Shown piece after piece: positions 33,277 through 59,287 of a stretch of 64,000 nt of DNA (the first letter of the stretch is position 1; every line of letters starts with the position of its first letter). The notes under the pieces are model-generated. The model searched no databases. It was given only the letters and a program-made list of their open reading frames with translations, and was not told where the DNA came from. The translations under genes and the position numbers were made by a program. The stretch comes from Zobellia alginiliquefaciens. GTDB taxonomy: Bacteria > Bacteroidota > Bacteroidia > Flavobacteriales > Flavobacteriaceae. The stretch is taken from the NCBI RefSeq assembly GCF_029323795.1, contig NZ_CP119758.1, positions 682,001 to 746,000 of the forward strand, given 5' to 3'.

Positions 33277-33300
33277 ATACCCTAAAAAAATAGGGGGTAT
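33277..33300 (+). promoter_or_regulatory. Distal nitrogen-operator candidate of glnK-amtB
   Basis: ATACCC-N11-GGGGTAT, 24 bp, ending 66 bp before the minus-7 box. It matches the element at 54377-54400 upstream of the GSII gene at 17 of 24 positions. Its half-sites are inverted (ATACCC/GGGTAT), as expected for a dimeric regulator. Confidence 0.6.
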
Positions 33301-33329
33301 AATTCCTATAAATATAAAAATTACCACAT

Positions 33330-33352
33330 ACACCCCAAATTTTTTAGGGTGT
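33330..33352 (+). promoter_or_regulatory. Proximal nitrogen-operator candidate of glnK-amtB
   Basis: ACACCC-N11-GGGTGT, a perfect 6-bp dyad starting 53 bp after the start of the distal site. It covers the putative minus-33 element (TTTA 33343-33346), so a bound protein would touch or block RNA polymerase. Confidence 0.58.
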
Positions 33353-33366
33353 TAATTATTTTAACA

Positions 33367-33374
33367 TACATTTG
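33367..33374 (+). promoter_or_regulatory. Minus-7 box of the glnK-amtB promoter
   Basis: Perfect TACATTTG, with TTTA 20 bp upstream as minus-33. It is 23 bp before the glnK ATG. Confidence 0.7.
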
Positions 33375-33397: not shown

Positions 33398-33736
33398 ATG
33401 AAACAAATCGAGGCAATCATTAGAAAATCGAAGTTTGATGACGTAAAAAAGGCGTTACATCAAATTGAGGTCAACTTCTTTAGTTACTGGGATGTAACAG
33501 GGGTTGGAAACGAAAAACAAGGTCACGTCTATAGAGGAATCTCTTACAGCACAAGTGACATTCAAAGAAGATACCTATCTATAGTGGTATCCGATGAATT
33601 TGTACAGCGTACCGTTGACACCATTCTTGAAGCGGCATATACCGGTAATGTAGGAGATGGAAAAATATTTGTTTCAGAAATTCTGGACGCATATAGAATA
33701 CGAACGAAAGAAAGCGGACAAGCTGGAATCAACTAA
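33398..33736 (+). CDS. glnK: PII nitrogen regulatory protein (GlnK/GlnB)
   Basis: Trimeric signal protein that senses 2-oxoglutarate and ATP/ADP and, in this position, most likely gates AmtB. The 112 residues match PII. The N-terminus is MKQIEAIIRKSKFDDVKKAL. In the T-loop (about 37-55) the Tyr aligned with E. coli Tyr51 is kept (HVYRGISY), but the loop is one residue shorter and RRYLS replaces LPKVK after it. The C-terminal GNVGDGKIFV block and RIRTKE are standard. Operon with amtB, 29-bp gap, under a promoter carrying two operator-like dyads. Confidence 0.95.
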   Translation: MKQIEAIIRKSKFDDVKKALHQIEVNFFSYWDVTGVGNEKQGHVYRGISYSTSDIQRRYLSIVVSDEFVQRTVDTILEAAYTGNVGDGKIFVSEILDAYRIRTKESGQAGIN

Positions 33737-33765: not shown

Positions 33766-34998
33766 ATGGACGCAGGATTATTTACAGCAAATAACGTTTG
33801 GATGATGTTGGCTACCGCCTTGGTATTCTTCATGCATACAGGCTTCGCCTTTTTAGAAATTGGCCTTACCAGACAAAAAAATACAATAAACATATTATTT
33901 AAGAACATCTTTATTATAACAGGTGGTCTTTTACTTTACTATGCGTGGGGCTTTAACATGATGTACCCTGGCTTTGAAGAAGGGTCTTCAGGAATATTCG
34001 GTTTTGCCGGTTTTGGTATAGCAGCTCCAGAAGGAGGAATGACACCAGACTACGCAGATGGTGGTTACACATGGTGGACAGACTTCTTGTTCCAAGGAAT
34101 GTTCGCAGCAACAGCAGCGACTATCGTATCCGGTGCAGTTGCAGAACGTATTAAAATTGGTGCTTTCATGATATTCACAGTAATCTATGTAGGTCTTGTT
34201 TATCCTATAGTAGGTGCTTGGAAATGGGGTGGCGGTTTCTTGGACTCATGGGGTTTTTATGATTTCGCAGGTTCTACTTTAGTTCACTCCGTAGGAGGTT
34301 GGGCAGCGTTAGTAGCTATCTTCTTATTAGGGTCTCGTATCGGTAAGTTTGATGAAAACGGTAAACCTAAAGCAATACCAGGTCATAACATTCCATTGGC
34401 AACTGCAGGTGTTCTTATCCTTTGGTTAGGATGGTTCGGTTTCAACGGTGGTTCTGTACTATCAGCTGACCCAGAATTAACTTCTTTAGTATTGGTAACT
34501 ACAAGTTTAGCCGCTGCTGCTGGTGGTTTTGGAGCTTTTATCCTATCTACCATATTATATAAGAACTTAGATTTAACCATGTTCCTTAATGGTATCCTTG
34601 GTGGTCTAGTAGGTATTACAGCTGGAGCTGACCTAATGTCTCCTAACGAAGCTATAGTTATTGGTTTCTTAGCCGGTCTTATTATTGTGTTAGGTGTAGC
34701 GTTAATTGACAAACTAAAATTAGATGACCCTGTTGGTGCGGTTACAGTTCACTTGATTTGTGGTATCTGGGGAACTTTAGCGGTAGGTATATTCGGTTCA
34801 AAAGCCGGTGGTGAGCAATTTATGGTTCAACTATACGGAGTGCTGATCGTAGGTGCCTTCTGTGTGATTTGTACTTTCATTATCCTTGGAGCCCTAAAAG
34901 CGGTAATGGGACTTAGAGTAAGCAAAGAAGAAGAGATCGAAGGTCTTGATATTCATGAGCACGGTATGGATGCATACCCAGATTTCATAAACGACTAA
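33766..34998 (+). CDS. amtB: Ammonium transporter AmtB
   Basis: The 410-residue trimeric ammonium channel has eleven membrane helices and no cleaved signal peptide. Family blocks include FFMHTGFAFLEIGLTRQKN, DFLFQGMFAATAATIVSGAV, the pore His in GSTLVHSVGGWAALVAI, WLGWFGFNGGS and the second His in VTVHLICGIWGTLAVG. The acidic C-terminal tail (EEEIEGLDIHEHGMDAYPDF) is the part that meets PII in other bacteria. Directly after glnK. A stem-loop without T-tail follows, then the porin gene. Confidence 0.97.
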   Translation: MDAGLFTANNVWMMLATALVFFMHTGFAFLEIGLTRQKNTINILFKNIFIITGGLLLYYAWGFNMMYPGFEEGSSGIFGFAGFGIAAPEGGMTPDYADGGYTWWTDFLFQGMFAATAATIVSGAVAERIKIGAFMIFTVIYVGLVYPIVGAWKWGGGFLDSWGFYDFAGSTLVHSVGGWAALVAIFLLGSRIGKFDENGKPKAIPGHNIPLATAGVLILWLGWFGFNGGSVLSADPELTSLVLVTTSLAAAAGGFGAFILSTILYKNLDLTMFLNGILGGLVGITAGADLMSPNEAIVIGFLAGLIIVLGVALIDKLKLDDPVGAVTVHLICGIWGTLAVGIFGSKAGGEQFMVQLYGVLIVGAFCVICTFIILGALKAVMGLRVSKEEEIEGLDIHEHGMDAYPDFIND

Positions 34999-35112: not shown

Positions 35113-36177
35113 ATGAAAGCGATTACAAATACAAAATACGTAAAAAATCTATTTTTCCTAGCCATATTACTTTTCTCCGCAACAGTTGTTGTTGCACAGG
35201 AAGATGAGGAAGAAAGTTCTAAATTTTCATTTAGCGGTTCAATCGATGCGTATTACAGAGCAAATTTAAACGCTCCCAACGGAGCAGATGCTCAAGCTCC
35301 AGGAAGTTCATTTGCAAACTTACCAGGTTTTGCTTTAGGTATGGCCAATGTTATTGGTGCTTACGAAGGTGAAAAAGTAGGTTTTGTAGCTGATTTAGTT
35401 TTTGGCCCAAGAGGAACGGATGCCATTTTTGCTTCTCCAATGTATTCTTCTACCGGAAACATCGTTAACCAATTGTATGCTTACTGGAATGTAAGTGATG
35501 CCGTAACCTTAACTTTTGGTAACTTCAATACTTTCTTAGGTTACGAGGTTATATCACCAGTTGCCAACTTTAACTATAGTACTTCTTACTTGTTCTCTTA
35601 CGGTCCGTTTTCACACACGGGATTAAAAGCTGATTTTGCTCTATCTGATGATTTCAGCTTAATGTTAGCGGTAATGAACCCAACTGACCTTACAGAGTTC
35701 AACCCAACAGGACAGTACGCTTGGGGAGCTCAATTAGGCTACAGTGGTCAATATTTGAACCTTTTAATTGATAACGGTTCTTACGAAGTAGATTTCACTG
35801 GTGGCTTTGACCTTTCTGATACTTTCTTCCTAGGATTGAACGCCGCTTATTTTGACGGAGACGAGGAGGATGGTGTTGGTAGCTTTGCAGGTCTTGCAGT
35901 TTACCCACAGTTGGCAACTTCTGATACTTTTTCTATAGGTCTAAGAGGTGAGTATTTTGCTGAAACTGATTTCTTTGGAGCAGTTGGTGGAACTGATGCT
36001 GACGGAGATGCAAGCGTATTTGCTGTAACCCTAACAGGTAGTGCTACTATTGGTGACTTGATCATCAAGCCAGAATTAAGATTAGATAGCGCTTCAGAAG
36101 AAGTATTCATTGACAATGATGGAAACCCAATGGGAGGTCTTTCTTCTTTTGTGTTGGCTGCGGTCTACTCTTTCTAA
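35113..36177 (+). CDS. Outer-membrane beta-barrel porin (BBP2/OmpL-like)
   Basis: The 354-residue protein has a signal peptide (about 1-29, ending VVVAQ) and a barrel of repeated amphipathic strands (FSFSGSIDAYYRANLNAPN, YAYWNVSDAVTLTFGNFNTF, SLMLAVMNPTDLTEFNP) ending FVLAAVYSF, with a terminal Phe as expected for BAM substrates. It resembles the putative beta-barrel porin-2 family. Position behind glnK-amtB suggests passage of ammonium or another nitrogen source across the outer membrane, which is inference. A strong terminator follows. Confidence 0.88.
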   Translation: MKAITNTKYVKNLFFLAILLFSATVVVAQEDEEESSKFSFSGSIDAYYRANLNAPNGADAQAPGSSFANLPGFALGMANVIGAYEGEKVGFVADLVFGPRGTDAIFASPMYSSTGNIVNQLYAYWNVSDAVTLTFGNFNTFLGYEVISPVANFNYSTSYLFSYGPFSHTGLKADFALSDDFSLMLAVMNPTDLTEFNPTGQYAWGAQLGYSGQYLNLLIDNGSYEVDFTGGFDLSDTFFLGLNAAYFDGDEEDGVGSFAGLAVYPQLATSDTFSIGLRGEYFAETDFFGAVGGTDADGDASVFAVTLTGSATIGDLIIKPELRLDSASEEVFIDNDGNPMGGLSSFVLAAVYSF

Positions 36178-42383: not shown

Positions 42384-42830
42384 TTAAAAGGTATCCTTAC
42401 CTATGGGAGCACTAGATACCACATTAGAAAGTATAATATGCGTGCGTGTCTCCCCATACTGAATAAGTTTATCTATAAACCGCTCTAAATGGAACTGATC
42501 CCTTAAAACTACTTCCATAACAATATTCTCATTTCCGGTAATCCGATAACAGTTCACCACCTCCTTATACGTTTTTACGGTCTCCAAAAAAGGTTTTAAT
42601 TTCCCCATAAAAGCTCGTAAGGTTATGATGGCTTTAAGATGATGACCTGTTTTCGCGTGCGAGACTTTAGTTATGTATCCTTCTATAATTCCCAGGTCCT
42701 CCATCTTCTTTATACGCTCCGCCACAGCAGGTGCCGTAAGCCCTACTTGCCTACCAATATCCGCAAAGGTTTCACGTGCATTTGCCTGAAGCCTTTTCAG
42801 TATTTTCCAGTTCAAATCATCTATATTCAT
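42384..42830 (-). CDS. Lrp/AsnC family transcriptional regulator
   Basis: The 148 residues have an N-terminal winged HTH (about 1-60, DLNWKILKRLQANARETFAD and VGLTAPAVAERIKKMEDLGI) and a C-terminal RAM ligand-binding domain (about 66-140, VVNCYRITGNENIVMEVVLR). Lrp-like proteins answer to amino acids and often control amino-acid transport or synthesis. The gene is divergent from the four-helix gene, so it may also regulate that one or itself. It is the only DNA-binding regulator in the middle of this window. Confidence 0.95.
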   Translation of the reverse strand: MNIDDLNWKILKRLQANARETFADIGRQVGLTAPAVAERIKKMEDLGIIEGYITKVSHAKTGHHLKAIITLRAFMGKLKPFLETVKTYKEVVNCYRITGNENIVMEVVLRDQFHLERFIDKLIQYGETRTHIILSNVVSSAPIGKDTF

Positions 42831-52109: not shown

Positions 52110-54296
52110 TTATTTAATGGACAATAACTCCCTGTATTTGGTAAGTGGCCAAAAACGATTGTCTACCAACCGTTCTAATTTATCGCAATGCATCCGTATT
52201 TCATCAAAATAAGGCTTTACGTTATCGCTATAAGCAAAAGCTTTCTTATGCGTATCGGCAAGCTTATTAGCCTTTCTTCTAGCATCGGTCATAGCGTCCG
52301 TCTGTTTTTTAAGCTCGGTAATATGCTCCGCAATCTGCTCTATAATTCCAGATTGGCCATCCGTCAATTTCCTGTGGGCAGCACCATATATCTCCTTTAG
52401 CCCCAGAACGTTTTTAATCAACATATTTTGATATTCTATAACAGACGGAATAATATGATTGTACACCAACTCATTAAACACCCTACCCTCTATCTGAATA
52501 TGCAAAATATAAGCATCCAGCTCTACCTCTTGTCTTGCCGTAACTTCTTTTTCGCTCATAACCCCCATTGACTCAAAAAGGTCTAAACTTTCTTTTGAGG
52601 TTAAAACCTGTAGGGCCTGTGGCGTATTCTTATTGTTACTTAGCTTTCTTCTTTTAGCTTCTTTTTCCCATTCATCACTATACCCATCTCCATCAAAACG
52701 AATTCGCTTAGACGTTTTTATATACTCTCTCAGTACATTAAAAACCGCTTCATCTTTTTTGAGACTCTTTTTATCAACCAGCGCATCAACTTCCTTTTTA
52801 AATTCTTGCAACTGCTTGGCTACAATTGTATTTAAAATGGTCATAGGCTTAGCACAATTGGTCTTTGAACCCACTCCACGCATTTCAAACTTATTTCCTG
52901 TAAATGCAAATGGCGAAGTACGATTACGGTCTGTGTTATCCAATAAAATTTCAGGGATTTTACCGACTACGTTAAGTTTAAGTTCCGTTTTTTCCTCAGG
53001 GGATAATTTTCCCTTAGACACACCTTCCAACTCATCTAAAACACTACTCAACTGCTTCCCTACAAATATGGATAGAATTGCCGGTGGAGCCTCGTTTGCT
53101 CCCAATCTATGGTCATTACTGGCAGACGCTATGGAAGACCTCAACAACTCCTCATACCTATCCACTGCTTTTATAGTATTAATAAAAAAGGTCAAAAATT
53201 GAAGGTTCTTCATAGGTGTAGAACCTGGACTCAATAAATTTACACCTGTATCCGTAGCCAAAGACCAGTTATTGTGTTTTCCCGAGCCATTGATTTCTGC
53301 AAATGGTTTTTCATGAAAAAGAACTTTAAGCTGATGTTTGTCCGCAATACGATCCATAACATCCATCAAAAGAAGGTTATGATCAACCGCCAGATTAGCT
53401 TCCTCAAAAACAGGAGCCAATTCAAATTGGTTGGGTGCTACTTCGTTATGACGGGTTTTTACAGGAATTCCCAGAAGCATACATTCTACCTCCAATTCCT
53501 TCATAAAATTGATTGCCCTCAAAGGAATCACACCAAAATAATGATCATCCAGTTGCTGCCCCTTTGCTGCGGAATGCCCAACTAAGGTACGCCCTGTTAA
53601 ACTGATATCTACACGTGAAGCAGCAAGTTCTTTATCTACCAAAAAATATTCTTGTTCCCAACCTAGGGTAGCATTGACCTTAACTACGGTTTTGTCAAAA
53701 AACTTAGCCACCGCTGTTGCAGCTTCGTCAACTGCACTCAACGCTCGTAACAAAGGCGCCTTATTATCTAAAGCTTCACCGGTATATGAGACAAATACCG
53801 TTGGTATACATAATGTGGTGTCATACACAAAAGCCGGACTCGTTGGATCCCATGCCGTATACCCTCTTGCCTCAAATGTATTACGTATTCCACCACTAGG
53901 AAAACTAGAGGCATCCGGTTCCTGCTGTACCAATTGTCCACCTCCAAATTTCTCCAACGCCCTTCCATCGGGCATCAAATCAAAAAACGCATCGTGCTTC
54001 TCGGCAGTTGCGCCTGTAAGTGGCTGAAACCAGTGGGTATAATGAGTAGCCCCCATTTCTATAGCCCATGATTTCATGGATTCAGCTACTTGATCAGCAA
54101 TTTTTCTGTCAATCTTTGATCCGGAAAAAATTGCCCCCTGCACGCTCGCCAAAGCATCTTTGGTAAGGTATTGCAACATTCGCTCATTATTGAACACATT
54201 AGTAGCATAAAGCTCTGACCTACGCCCCTTTTCATCAACATTTACCCGGTCTCTCTTTTTGCTCTCGGCAATAGCATCAAATCGCTGTCTAGACAT
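52110..54296 (-). CDS. glnN: Glutamine synthetase type III
   Basis: Makes glutamine from glutamate, ammonium and ATP. The 728 residues fit GSIII, about twice the size of GSI subunits. The catalytic core is seen in WEQEYFLVDKELAASRVDIS, TRHNEVAPNQFELAPVFEEA, FAEINGSGKHNNWSLATDTG, NDHRLGANEAPPAILSIFVG and NRTSPFAFTGNKFEMRGVGS. The GSIII-specific N- and C-terminal helical regions are complete. It is divergent from the GSII gene across a 211-bp gap carrying operator-like dyads, so both may be regulated together. A strong terminator follows. Confidence 0.96.
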   Translation of the reverse strand: MSRQRFDAIAESKKRDRVNVDEKGRRSELYATNVFNNERMLQYLTKDALASVQGAIFSGSKIDRKIADQVAESMKSWAIEMGATHYTHWFQPLTGATAEKHDAFFDLMPDGRALEKFGGGQLVQQEPDASSFPSGGIRNTFEARGYTAWDPTSPAFVYDTTLCIPTVFVSYTGEALDNKAPLLRALSAVDEAATAVAKFFDKTVVKVNATLGWEQEYFLVDKELAASRVDISLTGRTLVGHSAAKGQQLDDHYFGVIPLRAINFMKELEVECMLLGIPVKTRHNEVAPNQFELAPVFEEANLAVDHNLLLMDVMDRIADKHQLKVLFHEKPFAEINGSGKHNNWSLATDTGVNLLSPGSTPMKNLQFLTFFINTIKAVDRYEELLRSSIASASNDHRLGANEAPPAILSIFVGKQLSSVLDELEGVSKGKLSPEEKTELKLNVVGKIPEILLDNTDRNRTSPFAFTGNKFEMRGVGSKTNCAKPMTILNTIVAKQLQEFKKEVDALVDKKSLKKDEAVFNVLREYIKTSKRIRFDGDGYSDEWEKEAKRRKLSNNKNTPQALQVLTSKESLDLFESMGVMSEKEVTARQEVELDAYILHIQIEGRVFNELVYNHIIPSVIEYQNMLIKNVLGLKEIYGAAHRKLTDGQSGIIEQIAEHITELKKQTDAMTDARRKANKLADTHKKAFAYSDNVKPYFDEIRMHCDKLERLVDNRFWPLTKYRELLSIK

Positions 54297-54376: not shown

Positions 54377-54400
54377 ATACCCTGTTAAATTTAGGGCTAT
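54377..54400 (+). promoter_or_regulatory. Distal nitrogen-operator candidate between GSIII and GSII genes
   Basis: ATACCC-N11-GGGCTAT, 24 bp, ending 65 bp before the GSII minus-7 box. It matches the glnK element 33277-33300 at 17 of 24 positions. It also lies 80 bp upstream of the GSIII start, so one bound protein could affect both genes. Confidence 0.6.
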
Positions 54401-54429: not shown

Positions 54430-54452
54430 ACCCCCCTAAAAATTAGTATAAT
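54430..54452 (+). promoter_or_regulatory. Proximal, degenerate nitrogen-operator candidate of the GSII gene
   Basis: This 23-bp site starts exactly 53 bp after the distal site, the same offset as in glnK. Its left half (ACCCCCC) and TAAAAA centre resemble the glnK proximal dyad, but the right half is not GGGTGT. It covers the minus-33 region (TTAG 54443-54446). Confidence 0.45.
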
Positions 54453-54465
54453 TCAACAAAAAACA

Positions 54466-54473
54466 TATTTTTG
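54466..54473 (+). promoter_or_regulatory. Minus-7 box of the GSII promoter
   Basis: TATTTTTG is a perfect TAnnTTTG, with TTAG 19 bp upstream. A start near 54480 rules out translation from the in-frame TTG near 54475. Confidence 0.7.
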
Positions 54474-54507: not shown

Positions 54508-55524
54508 ATGAGCAAAACAAAATTAGAGTACATCTGGTTGGATGGATATTTCCCTACACAGAACATGCGTAGCAAGACTAAAGTCGTTAATGATTTTAGT
54601 GGAAAATTAGAAGATTGTGATATGTGGTCTTTTGATGGAAGTTCAACAAGACAAGCAGTAGGTGGATCTTCAGATTGCTTGTTAAAACCAGTTGCTATTT
54701 ACCCTGACCCTGCGCGTAGAGATGCCTATTTAGTAATGACCGAGGTCTTGAATGCTGATGGAACTCCACACGTTTCTAACGGTAGAGCAACTATTGATGA
54801 TGATGATAATGATTTCTGGTTCGGTTTCGAACAAGAATACTTTATTATGGATACCGCTACTCAACTTCCTTTAGGTTTCCCAATTGGTGGTTACCCTGCT
54901 CCACAAGGAATGTACTACTGTTCAGTAGGTGGTAAAAATACACACGGTAGAGATATCGTAGAAGAGCACGCGGATCTTTGTATCGATGCTGGATTGAACT
55001 TTGAAGGAATTAACCAAGAGGTTGCTTCTGGACAATGGGAATTTCAATTGTTCGCCAAAGGTGCTAAAAAAGCAGGTGATGAAATCTGGATCGCAAGATA
55101 CCTTTTAGATAGATTAACAGAACAACATGGTTATTACATTGAATACCACCCTAAGCCATTAGGAAAAGACATGGATTGGAACGGTTCTGGTATGCATGCC
55201 AACTTCTCTAACGAAGTTTTAAGAACATGTGGAGACAAAGCAACATATGAGAAAATATGTGAAGCTTTCCGTCCTGTTGTAAAAGAACACATTGCTGTTT
55301 ACGGTGAATTTAACGACCAACGTTTGACTGGTGATCACGAAACTGCTTCAATTAACGACTTTAGCTTTGGTATTTCTGATAGAGGTGCTTCTATACGTAT
55401 TCCAATTATTACAGTAGAGCAAGGCTGGAAAGGTTGGTTAGAAGACAGAAGACCTGCTTCTAATGGTGATCCGTACAAGATTGCGGGTAGAATCATCAAA
55501 ACAGTTAAATCTGCTAAGATTTAA
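54508..55524 (+). CDS. Glutamine synthetase type II (eukaryote-like)
   Basis: The 338-residue GSII starts at the ATG at 54508 (MSKTKLEYIWLDGYFPTQNM). The upstream in-frame TTG lies by the promoter. Family blocks: DMWSFDGSSTRQAVGGSSDC, FWFGFEQEYFIMD, GINQEVASGQWEFQLFAKGA, DWNGSGMHANFSNEVLR and RLTGDHETASINDFSFGISD. GSII is the eukaryotic class but is normal in Bacteroidetes. The pair GSII-GSIII gives two enzymes for the same reaction. Glnk-type operator sites lie upstream, and a very strong terminator follows. Confidence 0.96.
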   Translation: MSKTKLEYIWLDGYFPTQNMRSKTKVVNDFSGKLEDCDMWSFDGSSTRQAVGGSSDCLLKPVAIYPDPARRDAYLVMTEVLNADGTPHVSNGRATIDDDDNDFWFGFEQEYFIMDTATQLPLGFPIGGYPAPQGMYYCSVGGKNTHGRDIVEEHADLCIDAGLNFEGINQEVASGQWEFQLFAKGAKKAGDEIWIARYLLDRLTEQHGYYIEYHPKPLGKDMDWNGSGMHANFSNEVLRTCGDKATYEKICEAFRPVVKEHIAVYGEFNDQRLTGDHETASINDFSFGISDRGASIRIPIITVEQGWKGWLEDRRPASNGDPYKIAGRIIKTVKSAKI

Positions 55525-59213: not shown

Positions 59214-59287
59214 GGTCCTGTGGCGCAACTGGATAGCGCATCTGACTACGAATCAGAAGGTTACAAGTTCGAATCTTGTCAGGATCA
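59214..59287 (+). tRNA. tRNA-Arg (anticodon ACG)
   Basis: The 74-nt cloverleaf has acceptor GGTCCTG/CAGGATC (one G-T pair) plus discriminator A, a D-arm GCGC/GCGC with AACTGGATA loop, anticodon stem TCTGA/TCAGA with loop CTACGAA (anticodon ACG at 59248-59250), variable AGGTT, and T-arm ACAAG/CTTGT with TTCGAAT. The 3' CCA is not encoded, which is common in Bacteroidetes. The A34 is expected to be deaminated to inosine to read CGN codons. Confidence 0.96.

Follow-up and report, generated by a model that had tools for sequence, protein, structure and literature searches.

The window analysed here is a stretch of 64,000 nucleotides, corresponding to positions 682001–746000 of the 5.07-Mb genome of Zobellia alginiliquefaciens, which is assembled as one contig. 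It carries a glnK-amtB pair with a BBP2-type porin gene behind it and, with its paired repeats ∼21 kb from glnK, a gene for a type II glutamine synthetase (GSII) that is divergent from a type III gene (GSIII). The features are listed in Table 1.

Table 1. Genes and predicted regulatory features of the window, with coordinates counted from its first nucleotide
Feature	Position	Strand	Basis
Putative operator site 1 of glnK-amtB, ATACCC-N11-GGGGTAT, ATACCCTAAAAAAATAGGGGGTAT	33277..33300	+	Sequence; kept in nine genus members; module R1 E 5.3e-17
Putative operator site 2 of glnK-amtB, ACACCC-N11-GGGTGT, 53 bp after site 1	33330..33352	+	Sequence; 53-bp peak across promoters
TAnnTTTG (−7) box of the predicted glnK promoter, TACATTTG	33367..33374	+	Sequence; distance to site 2 almost constant in several relatives
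glnK (P-II protein)	33398..33736	+	Pfam P-II, E 3.3e-23
amtB (ammonium transporter)	33766..34998	+	Pfam Ammonium_transp, E 9.8e-117
BBP2 beta-barrel porin, 3' of amtB	35113..36177	+	Pfam BBP2, E 3.1e-67
Lrp/AsnC-family gene, between glnK and GSII	42384..42830	−	Pfam
Glutamine synthetase type III (GSIII), divergent from GSII	52110..54296	−	Pfam GSIII_N, E 6.4e-76
Putative operator site 1 of GSII, ATACCC-N11-GGGCTAT, ATACCCTGTTAAATTTAGGGCTAT	54377..54400	+	Sequence; module R1 E 1.1e-13
Putative operator site 2 of GSII, ACCCCCC left half kept, right half degenerate	54430..54452	+	Sequence
TAnnTTTG (−7) box of the predicted GSII promoter, TATTTTTG	54466..54473	+	Sequence
Glutamine synthetase type II (GSII)	54508..55524	+	Pfam Gln-synt_N and Gln-synt_C

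A first-pass annotation of this DNA had described a tandem operator shared by glnK-amtB and both glutamine synthetase genes, and all of the coordinates that it gave proved correct. The first sites of glnK and GSII are identical at 17 of 24 positions and lie 66 and 65 bp, respectively, ahead of a TAnnTTTG box, and in both promoters the second site begins 53 bp after the first. The second sites themselves share only 11 of 23 positions, and TAnnTTTG is a frequent motif, with 103 copies on the two strands of the window. The operator indeed precedes glnK-amtB and GSII, but in this genome the extension to GSIII does not hold in the same sense: the module faces GSII. The GSIII gene is divergent, its ATG lies 80 bp beyond the opposite end of the module, and the strand of GSIII shows no perfect TAnnTTTG between the two, so that GSIII is here only a candidate for control.

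The exact pattern of the first site, ATACCC-N11-GGG(G/C)TAT, occurs twice in the window, compared with no occurrence in 100 dinucleotide-preserving shuffles, and the whole 5.07-Mb genome contains it at these same two places only. With up to one mismatch allowed, the genome-wide counts were 13 (forward) and 7 (reverse), compared with 4 and 3 when the pattern was reversed. In a search of the genome with a sequence-only model of the tandem arrangement (R1, described below), the next place after glnK and GSII scored E = 0.0095; the GSII place belongs to the training set of R1, that of glnK closely duplicates a training example, and R1 E-values come from a shortened calibration.

Conservation and architecture of the paired sites

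Sixty genomes, the present one included, were searched, of which 28 gave a P-II match and 52 a GSII match, some of the latter being weak matches to GSIII only. The element with its 53-bp spacing was found at the glnK and GSII promoters in nine out of nine genomes of the genus. Such conservation within the genus proves little, since the neighbouring DNA is conserved as well: the DNA between site 2 and the start of glnK, some of the spacer and nearly all of the GSII upstream region are conserved like the sites, and at GSII the stretch from ACCCCCC to AGTATAATT is invariant among the nine members. Outside the genus, the two sites persist at the same spacing although the DNA separating them has diverged. 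The location relative to the gene varies among the P-II loci: the pair stands directly before glnK at 16 of 27 P-II loci (68–100% identity), 1.1–1.3 kb upstream at five (with a degenerate first site in L032), and 2.6 kb upstream, between gltB and a porin gene, at one (G021). In the five, a porin gene leads the glnK-amtB operon and the module is placed before the porin. At GSII, 21 of 30 loci match the site-1 pattern 121–134 bp before the ATG.

A BBP2-type porin accompanies glnK-amtB, following it in the present genome and preceding it at L023, L025, L026, L030 and L032. This porin may form an outer-membrane channel for ammonium or amines.

The putative operator module is two inverted repeats of approximately ACCCC-N10-GGGGT, with an A/T-rich core, whose centres are 53 bp apart. 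Pairs of ACCCC-N9..11-GGGGT repeats 51–54 bp apart were found, the second GSII site of the window retaining its left half only. Distances between strong half-sites were tabulated for 112 upstream regions (13 from glnK out of 30 P-II loci, 21 from GSII out of 30, and 78 from GSIII taken from the best 80 of 594 loci), after removal of paralogues, porin-led loci, duplicates from the genus and a GSII locus whose start is uncertain. Left-to-left distances peak at 53 bp with 14 cases, to which 51 and 52 bp add 14 more, although one repetitive upstream region (L418) contributes spurious left-to-left distances of 12, 24, 36 bp and so on. Right-to-right distances of 52–54 bp occur in 17 cases, the first right half lies 34–37 bp from the second left half in 32, and the half-sites within a site are 16–18 bp apart in 43. 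Outside the Flavobacteriales, inspection by eye showed that the inner half-sites (GGGGT...ACCCC) are often the clearest. As 53 bp corresponds to five turns of B-DNA, both sites would be expected on the same face of the helix.

Target genes and distribution in the Bacteroidia

R1 was built from 36 modules of glnK, porin-glnK and GSII loci (alignment A1, 36 of 40 modules, with L008, L012, L038 and L043 omitted as near-duplicates) and was applied to 38 genomes. With each locus counted once, 46 loci scored E ≤ 4.2e-4, and 45 of these lie before an ammonium-assimilation gene. When the trained loci and the four near-duplicates are removed, 18 of the 19 loci at this threshold precede such genes. GSIII accounts for nine of the 18 predicted loci (G012, G014, G019, G020, G023, G040, G042, G044 and G045). 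The others are a divergent GSIII/GSII pair in G016, GSII in G022, glnK in G038, the alanine dehydrogenase gene ald in G017, G018 and G021, gltB in G018, and divergent gltB/porin genes in G016 and G021. The sole exception, L086, overlaps the start of a Mur-ligase gene. Target genes were named from their translations, and Pfam confirmed the examples that were checked (ald, gltB, porin, amtB, GSIII, GSII and Mur ligase). Altogether, 27 of the 38 genomes have the module before an ammonium-assimilation gene, and in genomes other than the present one GSIII is its most frequent target. R1 found no module before such genes in the other 11 (G009, G011, G037, G039, G041, G043, G046, G047, G048, G049 and G050), eight of which had a P-II or glutamine synthetase match. 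A weaker R1 match (5.2e-4) precedes another type of amtB (G019, L157).

Association with alanine dehydrogenase is sporadic: four of 23 close orthologues with usable upstream DNA carry the module (24 loci, one with a short upstream region), and none of the nine in the genus does. At gltB, all nine genus members have GGGGG(T/C)-N30-ACCCCC (L168, C1:2961601–2961665 in the present genome), that is, the inner half-sites only, 3 bp closer than in glnK. The gltB upstream DNA (L472–L483, within ∼190 bp) is strongly conserved in the genus and partly in three other genomes, and an inverted repeat in it, AACGTTTTATT-N2-AAACGTT-like, looks like a second, different operator.

The class as a whole was surveyed by running R1, under stricter filters and at E ≤ 5e-4, over 159 Bacteroidia genomes, 18 of which gave a match. 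With the present genome and G040 excluded, 13 of the remaining 16 have a match before GSIII, GSII or amtB (two of the 13 belong to the same family as Zobellia), and three have a match elsewhere only; none of three further matches in these genomes was assigned to such a gene. The module was found before ammonium-assimilation genes in independent lineages.

GSIII upstream regions were scored in addition. The scan covered named genomes with a Bacteroidales query and the best 80 of 594 loci were taken, so that the sample is uneven; 78 of the 80 were scored, two having too little upstream DNA. Among these 78 from the best 80 of 594, 19 reached a score of at least 22 compared with 0.85 expected from shuffles, and 12 reached at least 24 compared with 0.2 expected. 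The scores include 32 for Bacteroides sp. GM023 (L362), 30 for a Paludibacteraceae MAG (L368), 22 for B. graminisolvens (L363), Flavobacterium beibuense (L431) and Chryseobacterium oranimense (L412, effectively one strong site), and 21 for C. cucumeris (L408), and inner half-sites were seen by eye in a Fluviicola MAG (L400). A false score of 22 can arise, as at L437, which apparently lies within a gene; this was the only one of ten Prevotella GSIII upstream regions to reach 22, and none of the ten was convincing. Nor was a module present in the upstream DNA examined for the gut Bacteroidaceae L397, L405, L407 and L432, in three of which amtB stands directly before GSIII.

The first-pass annotation had suggested looking for the element in flavobacteria. 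It recurs there and in many other genera with its 53-bp spacing, before GSIII, gltB/porin, ald and another amtB as well, but it is not confined to flavobacteria, being found in other orders of the Bacteroidia, Bacteroides included.

Direction of control and candidate binding proteins

Given the conserved paired sites, the simplest reading would be that one shared dimeric regulator governs ammonium uptake, PII and glutamine synthetase, as had been put forward from the window. It would bind as a dimer at each of the two sites, and the two dimers, on the same face of the DNA, would cooperate or bridge. Its targets would be glnK-amtB (with the porin), GSII and GSIII, joined in certain genera by gltB, ald and another amtB. 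When nitrogen is plentiful, the regulator would repress by covering or looping the core promoter, and nitrogen shortage would release the repression. We consider it likely, from sequence comparison, that the two places in the window are instances of a conserved Bacteroidia operator module for ammonium assimilation that represses under nitrogen plenty. Of this model, the comparisons directly show the module with its spacing, the genes that it precedes and how it is distributed.

The earlier view that repression and activation cannot be told apart still holds as far as proof is concerned, but promoter geometry leans to repression. Among 35 promoters with a script-assigned second site, this site starts 33–37 bp before TAnnTTTG in 18, 15–17 bp before it in six and at other distances in four, and the remaining seven have no perfect box. 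By eye, L386, L389 and L406 each have a site whose right half reaches into the TA of the −7 box, and L368 and L379 have half-sites to either side of it. Since the sites shift relative to TAnnTTTG and yet stay on or around the core promoter, a repressor is likelier; supposing that the element is an operator, we judge repression somewhat more probable than activation, going by promoter geometry only. Such a repressor probably acts as two cooperating dimers.

It is possible, if less probable, that the same operator serves an activator under nitrogen shortage, with the upstream dimer recruiting a second one to a weaker site that replaces the −33 element. The glnK and GSII promoters have the arrangement expected for this, with the stronger site upstream and the weaker one over −33, 33–35 bp from the −7 box in 14 of the 14 such promoters that have a box. 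In addition, a TTG in the −33 window is found in none of the 18 promoters of this type (second site 33–37 bp before the box), compared with six of nine in the other class. However, module-free controls also have no TTG there (0 of 27), and other GSIII promoters have the module ∼17 bp closer to, over or flanking the −7 box, which fits a repressor better.

The putative regulator need not depend on PII. P-II gave no match in ten of the 18 operator-bearing genomes outside the genus (G012, G014, G016, G017, G020, G023, G040, G042, G044 and G045), in a search that used one query protein, which a very divergent P-II could escape, and in which four genomes were 90–92% complete or gapped; G019 gave a distant match only. 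Because the module is present in genomes with no P-II match, the regulator need not act through PII there; if these genomes truly lack PII, it cannot depend on it, and glutamine synthetase or glutamine would be an obvious guess for what it senses. We tentatively propose that the Bacteroidia have a nitrogen regulator of their own, a protein so far not linked to nitrogen, free of PII and with GSIII as its most widespread target, that would bridge two operators separated by five turns, over the core promoter or next to it, and may sense glutamine synthetase or glutamine.

TnrA and GlnR are small MerR proteins that have no effector domain and sense glutamine synthetase. A MerR protein of ∼110 residues, also without an effector domain (L307–L336), was matched strongly, and once per genome, in 33 of the 34 genomes searched. 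That this near-universal protein is the binder, acting like TnrA or GlnR, is unlikely. The half-site distance of CCC-N11-GGG equals that of TGT-N11-ACA in TnrA/GlnR boxes, the module is present in genomes with no P-II match, and each of the 20 operator-bearing genomes among the 34 searched has one strong MerR match; yet the protein is equally present in operator-negative genomes. Moreover, the 29 proteins aligned (29 of 33 matches; G044, G027 and G048 were without a locus and one protein was not picked) hardly differ in the recognition helix, whether or not their genomes carry the operator, and in 30 MerR loci of ∼3.3 kb the module score never exceeded 23, compared with 30 for glnK and 22 for GSII of the present genome. 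Across the 34 genomes and 29 proteins, neither the presence of the protein nor its helix tracks the box.

Still more doubtful is a binder of the Lrp/AsnC family, such as the product of the window gene or of AsnC genes near ald. Phased sites with A/T-rich cores fit this family, an AsnC gene lies within ∼25 kb of GSIII or GSII in G000, G012, G016, G018, G019 and G020, and in G018 and G021 (L121, L110) one is found within a few kb of ald, beside a leuS-like gene. Against this, searches of operator-bearing genomes with AsnC_trans_reg found nothing in G042 (99% complete) or G045 (92% complete) and a single match each in G017 and G044, and the family looks excluded. A Crp-family protein was matched in 18 of 19 operator-bearing genomes, with none in G045 (92% complete), and seems an unlikely binder, its half-site distance not fitting. 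In Bacteroides sp. GM023 (L362) a Crp-family gene directly follows GSIII; it was set aside, as relatives of it also occur in operator-negative genomes.

An inventory of DNA-binding proteins was made for the small operator-bearing genome G045 (92% complete), in which 37 generic seeds were searched against almost the entire set of 42 contigs. MerR, TetR, ArsR, PadR, DtxR, Fur, LysR, AraC, OmpR, NtrC-type and XRE proteins remained; no notable match was found there to AsnC, Crp, GntR, LacI, Rrf2 or LuxR seeds, and MarR seeds weakly matched only XRE or unrelated proteins. The seed screen recovered ten of ten known AsnC, Crp and MerR controls, which cover these three families only. An S24-type XRE protein of G045 was rejected, being neither conserved nor tracking the module.

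It is highly improbable that the repeats are transcription terminators or leader-RNA hairpins rather than operators: ACCCC...GGGGT repeats with T-runs do occur elsewhere as likely terminators, for instance at 791009 of the same genome, but whatever gene lies upstream, the module stays at a similar distance from the downstream start and its sites stay 53 bp apart, site 1 precedes the −7 box, and site 2 in the window has no T-run behind it. No Rfam match was found at the sites, the only match in the window at gathering scores being a tRNA (59214–59287). The repeat AACCCCATAAAATATGGGGTTTT at C1:791009–791033 (L109), between asnB- and gyrB-like genes (read from their translations), is a terminator-like mimic of the operator. 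It and L105 were matched by a single-site model, R2, and were discarded as terminator-like false positives; R2 is weaker than R1 and also picks terminator-like repeats.

Relation to known nitrogen-control systems

In Bacillus, TnrA and GlnR of the MerR family bind TGTnAn7TnACA boxes before glutamine synthetase and amtB-glnK genes. The module resembles these boxes in being an inverted repeat with an A/T-rich core, in having half-sites ∼14 bp apart and in the similar target genes, but differs in reading ACCCC instead of TGTnA, in the two sites 53 bp apart and in belonging to another phylum; all 48 aligned sites read ACCC...GGG. AmtR of Corynebacterium, a TetR-family protein with a regulon of amtB, glnK, gltBD and glutamine synthetase, represses in nitrogen excess via GlnK. 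It shares with our model an overlapping regulon and repression in nitrogen excess, here only proposed, whereas its sequence is different and it acts through GlnK, for which many module-bearing genomes gave no match. The cyanobacterial Crp-family protein NtcA recognizes GTA-N8-TAC, with half-sites ∼11 bp apart, and likewise serves a nitrogen regulon, but half-site sequence and distance differ and G045 gave no Crp match. NtrC enhancers, which work with sigma-54, likewise come as paired sites upstream of glnK-amtB and glutamine synthetase genes; unlike them, the module is combined with a TAnnTTTG promoter box and has a site overlapping the core promoter; no sigma-54 −24/−12 motif was noticed when the window promoters were read by eye.

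To our knowledge, the control of ammonium uptake and glutamine synthesis in the Bacteroidota is poorly described, and no description of such an operator was found in the literature searched (at the level of catalogue entries). We therefore regard as apparently new a nitrogen-control box with a fixed tandem spacing and a wide distribution. In Prevotella ruminicola 23, amtB, glnK, glnN, gltB, gltD and asnB are reported to change strongly together with ammonium supply (PMC5552732). Passages of the study are inconsistent on the direction, the genes being called induced at limiting ammonium in one place and higher at non-limiting ammonium in others (PMC5552732). Given this conflict and the lack of a convincing Prevotella upstream region, the study supports only the idea that such genes are regulated together in the class.

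The matched site pairs in distant relatives point to an undescribed protein that would control nitrogen use across a broad bacterial class. With the sequence, spacing, targets and distribution of the operator defined, the question is narrowed to finding the protein that binds an 80-bp fragment. The operator may also serve as a marker for reading nitrogen regulation in genomes and metagenomes, and the nitrogen regulon would persist in genomes in which no P-II gene is detected.
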